64,000 nucleotides of DNA, taken from contig QHSL01000063.1 of assembly GCA_003220435.1 (NCBI GenBank), forward strand, positions 1 through 64,000, written 5' to 3'. The position numbers and the translations under genes are program-made. Source of the DNA: Candidatus Rokuibacteriota bacterium. GTDB lineage: Bacteria; Methylomirabilota; Methylomirabilia; Rokubacteriales; CSP1-6. The notes below the pieces were generated by a model. That model saw only the letters and a program-made list of their open reading frames with translations, did no database searches and was not told where the DNA came from. This document shows, piece by piece, positions 9,087 to 11,338 of this stretch (the first letter of the stretch is position 1; every line of letters starts with the position of its first letter).

Positions 9087-9155
9087 CGCCCGGGCACCCG
9101 CTGCCTGAAATAATCCTCGGGCGTCGCCCGTACTTCCTGGCAGACGGCGAGGAGT

Positions 9156-9722
9156 GTGGCAGCAACCCAGGGCTCGGATGCGGACAACCGGCGAGCAGAG
9201 TTTGAGCTTGCGCGTCGCGCCCGCCGCGGCGATGCGGCGGCCTTCGACGAGCTGGTGCTCCGCTTTCACCGGCCCGTCCATCGCTTCTGCTGGCGACTGC
9301 TCCGATCCCCCGACGCCGAGGATCTCGCGCAGGACACGTTCGTCCGGGCTTTCGTCCATTTCGAGCGGTTCGATCCGGAGCGACCGGTTCTGCCGTGGCT
9401 CATCGCCATCGCTCGCCGGCTTTGCGTGGACGTGCTGCGACGGCGAAAGATGATGACCAACGTGGAGGTGCCGGTCACCAGCCCGCCGGCGCCAGGGCCC
9501 GAGGGCGAGGCCTCGCTGCGCGAGCAGCTGGCGCGTCTCGATCGGGCGCTCGCCGATCTGGACGAGGGGCCGAGGGAGGCCATCGTCCTCTTCCACATCG
9601 AAGAAATGTCGTACCGGGACATCGCGGTGGCTCTCGAGGTGCCGATAGGCACGGTGATGACGTGGCTCCATCGCGGCCGCGCCCGGCTCAAGAGGACGCT
9701 GGAAGGCGCGCCCTTCGCATGA
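9156..9722 (+). CDS. RNA polymerase sigma factor, sigma-70 ECF type
   Basis: 188 residues from a GTG start preceded by GGCGAGGAG. Region 2 is around residues 20-85 (FDELVLRFHRPVHRF, then DAEDLAQDTFVRAF with the -10-recognising helix), and region 4 around 125-180 (PREAIVLFHIEEMSYRDIA, then VPIGTVMTWLHRGRARLK helix-turn-helix). No region 1 or 3, as expected for ECF. It overlaps the next gene by 4 bp. The partner small membrane protein and the STN-solenoid protein downstream suggest an envelope-signal-controlled regulon. Confidence 0.93.
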   Translation: MAATQGSDADNRRAEFELARRARRGDAAAFDELVLRFHRPVHRFCWRLLRSPDAEDLAQDTFVRAFVHFERFDPERPVLPWLIAIARRLCVDVLRRRKMMTNVEVPVTSPPAPGPEGEASLREQLARLDRALADLDEGPREAIVLFHIEEMSYRDIAVALEVPIGTVMTWLHRGRARLKRTLEGAPFA

Positions 9723-10114
9723 GCCGCCGAGCCGACGAGAGCGATGAGCTCACCAGCCTGCTTCAGGCGCTTCCCGCGCCGGAGCCGTCGGCCGAGCTCC
9801 TTGCCGGCGCGCGGCGCCGATATCTCGAGGCGATCGAAGCCCGCGATCGGCGCGCGGTCTTCACCGGCCTCGCGGCCGCGGTCGTCGGGCTCGTGGTGAT
9901 CGCCACCCTGCTGACGACCACCGTCGAGCCGGCCGCCCTCATCGCTTGGCTCGCGGAGGCCGCGGCCGACCTTGCCAGATGGGCGGCCGGCGTCGGCGTC
10001 GTCATCGACCTCGTGCCCCCGAGCATCTGGACGTCGGTCCTGCTGGGCTCCACCGTGTCCGTCCTGTCACTGGTCCTCATCGCCCGGGCACGATCCCTGA
10101 CGCTCCTGAAATAA
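9719..10114 (+). CDS. Small membrane protein, probable anti-sigma partner
   Basis: 131 residues, start overlapping the sigma stop (ATGA). The N-terminal ~45 residues are soluble and helical (DELTSLLQALPAPEPSAELL), followed by two hydrophobic segments (VFTGLAAAVVGLVVIATLL and, near the end, SVLLGSTVSVLSLVLIA). The arrangement resembles that of short anti-sigma factors with a cytoplasmic sigma-binding part and membrane anchor, but there is no HxxxCxxC zinc motif. The function is inferred only from the gene pair. Confidence 0.6.
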   Translation: MSRRADESDELTSLLQALPAPEPSAELLAGARRRYLEAIEARDRRAVFTGLAAAVVGLVVIATLLTTTVEPAALIAWLAEAAADLARWAAGVGVVIDLVPPSIWTSVLLGSTVSVLSLVLIARARSLTLLK

Positions 10115-10156
10115 GGCGAGCGCTCGACCGTACTCTCGGGCGAAGGGAGATCGGAC

Positions 10157-11338
10157 ATGAGCGCAGCCAAGCTGATCGTCGTTCTCGCCGTCGCTCTCGT
10201 GCTTCTCCCGGGCCTCGCCTGGGCGGCCACGCCGGCCGGCGGGCGGCTGGAGGGTCGCCTTCCCGACAGCGCGCCCATCGTCTCCATCGACCAGCCACGC
10301 GGCACCGTCCTCGACGCGCTGAGCGCGATCGCCAAGCAGACGGGCTGGAGCCTCGTAGTTACCGCTCCCGAGAGTGCGACCACGCGCGCGCTCAGCCTCC
10401 ATGTCTCGAAGCGTCCCGTCGGCGAGGTACTCGATCTGATCCTCGAGGCGGGCTCGCTCCGGGCCTCGTTCGCTGACGGCGTCCTCCGGGTTCGCGAGGA
10501 CGTCACCGCAGTGTCAGGCGATTCCTGGCGCGAGCGCCGCCGTGAGCGACGCGGTCGGCACGGATCCGAGCGCGTGGTGTTCGGCCACTCGCTCACGGTC
10601 GGCGCGAACGAGACCGTCGACAAGGCCGTGGCCATCGGCGGCTCCATCACGATCGCGGGCCACGTACAACGAGATGCGGTGGCGATCGGTGGCTCAGTCA
10701 CGCTCCAGCCAGGCGCCCGCGTCGACGGTGATGCGGTTGCGATCGGCGGAGCCGTGTCGGTCGCGGAGGGCGCGACGCTCGAAGGCGACAACGTGAGTCT
10801 CGGCGGGGCGATCCCGACGACGGTCGGCTCGGGGATCCGCTGGGTGGTTGGCGGGCCTCACATGTTCTCGATGTTCAGCTTCGCCTCGCGGCTGACGCGC
10901 GCCGTGCTGCTGTTCGTCGTCGCGTTGCTCATCGCGGTCGCCTTCCCCGGAGCCGTGACGCGCATCGGGGCGTACCTGGTCAATCGGCCCGGGCTCTCGG
11001 CGCTCGGCGGCGTCGCGCTCCTCCTGGGATTCGTGCCGCTCGTCTTCCTGCTGGCCGTGACGATCATCGGCATCCCGCTGATCCCCGTGGCGGTGATATC
11101 CCTTGTCGCCCTCCTGCTCTTCGGGTTCACGGTCTCCGCCGGATGGCTCGGCGAGAAGCTGCCGTTTCTGCGAGAGAACAAGACGCCCCTCAGGACGGTC
11201 GCCCTCGGAGGCGTTGTCCTCGTCCTGGTTGGTCTCATTCCCTGGATCGGGACCGTGGTAGTCGTCCTCGCGGCCGTGGTGGCCGCCGGGGCGACGCTGC
11301 TCTCCAGGTTCGGCCGGAGAGCGGAGGTCGCGGCCTAG
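10157..11338 (+). CDS. STN-domain / beta-solenoid / membrane protein
   Basis: 393 residues with an unusual order. A signal peptide (residues 1-24, VVLAVALVLLPGLAWA) is followed by an STN-like domain (about 43-115: VLDALSAIAKQTGWSLVVTA, then PVGEVLDLILEAGSL), a basic linker, and then short repeats with the register VAIGGSITIAGHVQRD / VAIGGSVTLQPGARVDGD / VAIGGAVSVAEGATLEGD (about 150-215), as in bactofilin-like beta-solenoids. The C-terminal ~150 residues hold about four membrane helices. STN domains work in secretins and in TonB transducers that signal to anti-sigma factors, which fits the sigma operon. Its TAG overlaps the TAG of the convergent gene (CTAG). Confidence 0.75.
   Translation: MSAAKLIVVLAVALVLLPGLAWAATPAGGRLEGRLPDSAPIVSIDQPRGTVLDALSAIAKQTGWSLVVTAPESATTRALSLHVSKRPVGEVLDLILEAGSLRASFADGVLRVREDVTAVSGDSWRERRRERRGRHGSERVVFGHSLTVGANETVDKAVAIGGSITIAGHVQRDAVAIGGSVTLQPGARVDGDAVAIGGAVSVAEGATLEGDNVSLGGAIPTTVGSGIRWVVGGPHMFSMFSFASRLTRAVLLFVVALLIAVAFPGAVTRIGAYLVNRPGLSALGGVALLLGFVPLVFLLAVTIIGIPLIPVAVISLVALLLFGFTVSAGWLGEKLPFLRENKTPLRTVALGGVVLVLVGLIPWIGTVVVVLAAVVAAGATLLSRFGRRAEVAA

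Follow-up and report, generated by a model that had tools for sequence, protein, structure and literature searches.

Cell-surface signalling systems of the Fec/Fox type (FecI/FecR/FecA, FoxI/FoxR/FoxA) join an ECF sigma factor, a membrane anti-sigma factor and a periplasmic domain of the STN kind. In a different setting, the PspC/LiaF-type and DUF4097 'toastrack' envelope-stress proteins couple a solenoid-like domain to membrane helices under stress control. The signalling domain of FoxA protects the anti-sigma factor FoxR from proteolysis (PMC11637429). An STN protein without a beta-barrel has also been described in an ECF sigma system, namely VreA of PUMA3 (VreA/VreI/VreR) in Pseudomonas aeruginosa; VreA is mostly soluble and periplasmic with a TolA/TonB-like C-terminal domain, and its expression does not respond to VreI, which controls a number of other genes (PMC2729926).

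The locus analysed here lies in a 64,000-nucleotide stretch of DNA (the window) from a soil bacterium, a Candidatus Rokuibacteriota MAG of 5.44 Mb. It consists of three genes reading in one direction on the forward strand: an ECF sigma factor gene (188 aa, GTG start, 9156..9722), a gene for a two-TM protein of 131 aa (gene 2, 9719..10114) that overlaps the sigma gene by ATGA, and a gene for a 393-aa protein (10157..11338) in which Pfam and AF2 place an STN domain, a beta-solenoid and a predicted inner-membrane domain. The sigma factor has regions 2 and 4 only (Pfam Sigma70_r2 3e-18, Sigma70_r4_2 2e-15), like the sigma half of an ECF / class I pair, and of the 25 NCBIfam models listed the generic ECF superfamily model (TIGR02937) alone scores above cut-off. 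The original prediction, made from the letters of the window, had read this operon as an ECF sigma factor, a probable anti-sigma partner and an STN-solenoid-membrane protein, and its sigma call, coordinates and anatomy stand in the light of the ORF, Pfam and AF2 evidence.

As in the Fec/Fox systems, the STN protein of the window is itself likely a target of its sigma factor. Unlike in those systems, it has no TonB-dependent barrel (Pfam, AF2) and appears to be an inner-membrane solenoid protein, its STN domain is closest to the secretin N0 domain, and the putative anti-sigma factor has two TM segments and no FecR periplasmic domain. Having neither barrel nor FecR domain, the operon falls outside cell-surface signalling as defined, though it may work similarly. 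The adjacent sigma and membrane anti-sigma genes and the predicted autoregulatory promoter recall ECF / class I (zf-HC2-type) pairs, but here the anti-sigma factor is cut down to helix 4 plus two TM segments and a conserved third gene follows. With bactofilins (PF04519) the 393-aa protein shares short beta-solenoid rungs of the VxxGGxxxx type; unlike them it is membrane-anchored, has few rungs, is fused to an STN domain and is presumably periplasmic. It gives no Pfam match to the PspC/LiaF-type or DUF4097 families, and the operon has an ECF sigma factor where those systems have LiaRS or PspA control. Unlike the window protein, VreA has neither a solenoid nor a TM bundle, and the solenoid-membrane body is likewise missing from FoxA. 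The original prediction had known of no described system with this architecture, and the full texts of 5.39 million open papers yielded none, the one barrel-less precedent being VreA with its different body. A search for a bactofilin or polymer-forming protein with an ECF sigma or anti-sigma factor returned nothing relevant in the main texts of the open literature; a mention in the 2021 ECF reclassification or in supplements is possible. The module is real and conserved and, as far as that literature goes, undescribed.

The 393-aa protein begins with a signal peptide (residues 1-24, 10157..10228), recognised in the sequence as a hydrophobic helix ending in AWA and modelled by AF2 as a helix at 3-24. 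The STN / secretin N0 domain follows at residues 41-114 (10277..10498), then a basic helix-linker with RERRRERRGRHGSE (residues 121-136, 10517..10564) that is nearly invariant within the genus, a beta-solenoid of 4-5 rungs (residues 138-214, 10568..10798; AF2 pLDDT ~94) with rungs at about 142, 158, 175, 194 and 212, and a membrane domain whose helices lie within residues 236-385 (10862..11311). AF2 places these helices at 236-262, 278-301, 305-334, 344-359 and 364-385 (4-5 TM), and the GIPL and C-terminal RFG motifs of the domain are conserved across phyla. These fold statements come from an AF2 model built on an alignment of 45 relatives (overall pLDDT 84); a model from the six orthologues alone reached a pLDDT of 46 and was set aside.

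Single-protein evidence for the STN domain is weak, both Pfam matches being sub-threshold (STN, E 0.0035 at 65-113; DotD, E 1.3e-4), and the assignment is secure because of its relatives. Pfam STN matches 24 of 45 family members, with E 1.6e-18 in a homologue carrying two STN domains, and the family profile finds the PilQ N0 domain in the PDB (4AR0, E 4e-11). The AF2 model gives the topology b-a-b-b-a-b-b at a pLDDT of 94-97, and Foldseek ranks PilQ N0 and DotD best, also lists the T3SS secretin N0 and places FpvA lower. Family profiles and the fold search thus rule against a chance resemblance. The nearest sequence relatives of the domain are the N0 domains of PilQ and HofQ, that is, of the secretin type, and the N0/STN part stands alone, Pfam and the PDB profile search finding no secretin channel domain in the protein. 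The STN domain foreseen at residues 43-115 is therefore present, recovered by both the structure prediction and the profile search that had been proposed as checks. The solenoid repeats and about four membrane helices were also foreseen; both are there, with 4-5 rungs in the AF2 model in place of the three repeats first counted. The likeness to bactofilins holds as a resemblance of fold and mostly fails in Pfam scores: PF04519 gives the window protein 16.1 bits (E 0.014) against a cut-off of 27.9, and most family members fall below that cut-off, which a few relatives (L026 and L103) pass.

Gene 2 has no Pfam family of its own, and FecR is not among its matches even at an E of 10. It has two TM segments, a predicted periplasmic loop of ~35 residues and a helix-4 motif, ALPxPEPS, and lacks the zinc-finger helices. 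Aligned by hhalign with the anti-sigma genes that take its place in other phyla, it reached probabilities of 94-95 and a score of 46.7, as against a best score of 32.2 among 100 shuffles, none of which did as well. The alignment covers its first 40 residues and, in those two-TM anti-sigma factors, the linker/helix-4 region; several of these position-equivalent proteins (L075, L076) are zf-HC2 proteins. The homology to class I therefore runs through the helix-4 region, with helices 1-3 missing. By homology gene 2 belongs to the class I anti-sigma factors, in truncated form; the original prediction had suspected an anti-sigma partner here. Since the zinc-finger helices are missing, its anti-sigma activity is predicted and not certain.

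Six genomes of the genus share the gene order, with sequence identities of 75-92%. When 95 genomes of the window's phylum were searched, no other genus had the full protein; six of nine members of this genus carry it, in syntenic position. For two of the members without it (G004, G008) we rejected an assembly gap as the cause, since both retain the gene that lies upstream, with different DNA beside it; in G008, ~5.2 kb lacking any match to the operon (L185:1388-6629) separates two genes that flank the operon in the window. Solenoid-membrane relatives occur in 44 of 388 genomes searched. From genomes of phyla other than the window's we fetched 39 such loci, two of them Myxococcota; in 24 of the 39 an ECF sigma gene reading the same way lies no more than 3 kb upstream. 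When the relatives of the window are counted in as well, this is where 29 of 34 sigma hits fall. In one phylum, that of G269, 135 of 195 genomes match. We identify this phylum as Myxococcota because the PilQ of one genome (G520) closely matches, over its full length, the PilQ in 3JC8, the Myxococcus xanthus pilus machine. Of 40 sampled Myxococcota loci, mostly one per genus, 36 have the sigma gene immediately before the solenoid-protein gene and in the same orientation; two of the four exceptions lie at contig ends. Since order and sequence are kept in six genomes and the pairing with sigma recurs across phyla, the three-gene arrangement, judged by its sequence conservation, is not fortuitous. 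The original prediction had staked itself on an STN-like fold and on linkage to sigma genes elsewhere, and on both points the results went its way.

The sigma and solenoid-protein trees agree in grouping the window's operon with three loci of another phylum, G400, G575 and G578 (100/97 and 99/94). This agreement suggests inheritance as a unit, with transfer between phyla possible. The anti-sigma gene in G400 likewise lacks the zinc-finger helices. On the constant solenoid-membrane core the N-terminal part varies among loci, being one STN domain, two STN domains, a GH2-type sugar-binding domain or a coiled coil (the last in L090). We found STN-bearing versions only in Myxococcota, including Myxococcus, and in the window's genus, and many loci of other phyla have the core paired with sigma but no STN domain at all. 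The sigma/anti-sigma/solenoid-membrane module thus spans several phyla, and its presence in the genetically tractable Myxococcus makes an envelope role testable; the module may be an envelope-stress pathway that has gone unrecognised.

The search for a promoter motif, also proposed at the outset, led to two predicted sigma-type promoters on the forward strand, both invariant in six species. Promoter 1, GAAATAA-N15-CGTACT (9107..9134), has its 3' end 21 bases upstream of the sigma gene, and promoter 2, GAAATAA-N14-CGTACT (10108..10134), has its own 22 bases upstream of the 393-aa gene; the spacers differ by one base. The strict motif GAAATAA-N14/15-CGTAC has exactly two sites in each of five operon-bearing genomes, among them the 5.4-Mb genome of the window, where both lie inside the operon. 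A further operon-bearing genome (G003) has two plus two scattered sites, the three members of the genus that lack the operon have none, and a control scan with the reversed motif found no sites. Relaxed to GAAATA-N15/16-CGTA, the motif still has exactly two sites in the window's genome, and it has exactly two in G578, a genome of 6.5 Mb from another phylum; all of these lie inside the operon. Such pattern scans catch near-exact sites, and degenerate targets elsewhere would escape them. Because GAAATAA before the 393-aa gene overlaps the stop codon of gene 2, we considered coding constraint as the reason for its conservation and rejected it, since in G006 gene 2 stops earlier and the motif is retained. 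Both sites look like sigma-specific promoters, and promoter 1 would serve sigma autoregulation.

The second copy, before the solenoid-protein gene, is also found in the three sister loci, all of which carry both promoter copies. The motif precedes the sigma gene in many Myxococcota loci; in one family with 5-Mb genomes, probably Anaeromyxobacteraceae, and in some other families it stands before the sigma gene only. Loci of the Myxococcaceae type have, by eye and in several loci, a GCAAT-N16-CGTA variant before the sigma gene. No second copy was seen before the STN-solenoid gene in the seven Myxococcaceae loci inspected, so that this gene would there be co-transcribed and not boosted. The window's lineage is an unusually clean case, the only near-exact genomic sites of its sigma being its own promoter and that of one putative effector gene.

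We propose a self-contained envelope-homeostasis circuit in which the 393-aa protein is the main output and likely feeds back on the anti-sigma factor. The two-TM anti-sigma factor would hold the ECF sigma factor at the inner membrane until an envelope disturbance frees it. The freed sigma factor would then transcribe its own operon and, from the second, dedicated promoter, the 393-aa gene, which promoter 2 would boost independently of the anti-sigma gene. The 393-aa protein, in the window's genome the sole detectable output, would be anchored in the inner membrane, its STN domain and solenoid exposed to the periplasm, and would act on the envelope. It would probably also touch the anti-sigma factor and so reset the switch, making it effector and feedback element in one. 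The dedicated promoter and the lack of other near-exact sites make it the likely output, and the STN domain and tight linkage make an action on the anti-sigma factor possible. We regard this circuit as moderately supported and give it a probability of about one half; the 393-aa protein would be a sigma output first of all, and only possibly a sensor or feedback element as well.

From the domain composition and the neighbouring sigma gene one may infer, as the original prediction did, an envelope sensor without an outer-membrane receptor. Taken as the primary role, this would be a barrel-less form of cell-surface signalling in which the periplasmic part senses the state of the envelope, the STN or membrane domain controls anti-sigma stability and further sigma targets were missed by our scans. 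The STN domain is of the kind used for signal transfer (AF2, PDB profile, Foldseek), N-terminal domains varying on a constant core beside sigma are what a sensor family would be expected to show, the FoxA signalling domain shields its anti-sigma factor FoxR from proteolysis (PMC11637429), and VreA shows that an ECF system can include a barrel-less STN protein (PMC2729926). We nevertheless find this account doubtful: gene 2 offers the STN domain only a ~35-residue loop and no FecR-type periplasmic domain to bind, the dedicated second promoter and the absence of other near-exact sites point to an output, and the best STN matches are secretin N0 domains and not those of TonB transducers. Possible, though less likely than not, is a combined form: an inner-membrane solenoid protein whose periplasmic input domains (STN, double STN, sugar-binding, coiled coil) are interchangeable would both control the anti-sigma factor as a sensor and be an output of the sigma factor. 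If true, it would define a widespread, undescribed class of ECF module, a barrel-less and TonB-independent counterpart of cell-surface signalling.

The solenoid could instead polymerise like a bactofilin into a periplasmic scaffold, with the STN and membrane parts anchoring envelope machinery and sigma merely tuning its amount. The bactofilin-like solenoid and four related loci with a solenoid on an outer-membrane-type barrel would suit this, but with only 4-5 rungs, a membrane tether and a signal peptide favouring a periplasmic over a cytoplasmic solenoid, we think it unlikely. An assembly role, with the N0-like domain attaching the protein to a secretin or pilus-type complex whose state the circuit would follow, is very improbable: PilQ and HofQ N0 are the nearest sequence relatives and DotD shares the fold, but no secretin or pilus gene was seen adjoining the operon and the core does without STN in many sigma-paired loci of other phyla. 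The envelope-homeostasis circuit with the 393-aa protein as main output remains our preferred reading.

Several loci showed further variations. In one sigma operon (L076:4487-6208) the N-terminal part of the solenoid-membrane protein is a sugar-binding domain of the GH2 type (E 2e-12). The solenoid sits on an outer-membrane-type barrel in place of TM helices in L031:6500-8035 (Pfam Omp85, E 4e-11) and, by sequence appearance, in L094:3397-6192, L096:4791-6350 and L110:3387-5090; an ECF sigma gene lies within a few kb in L031, L094 and L110 but not in L096. In L073:3376-4428 and L089:4827-5945 (both by Pfam) and in L084:2903-3997 (by sequence appearance) the sigma and solenoid-membrane genes are separated by a DUF4097 'toastrack' gene. 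Two Myxococcota genomes (L145, L147) have copies of the STN-solenoid gene with no sigma gene upstream within the stretch fetched. Finally, in L022, from one related genome, the 393-aa gene is followed by a second sigma-like ORF (9385-10989) of 534 aa with ~30% identity to the window's sigma factor.
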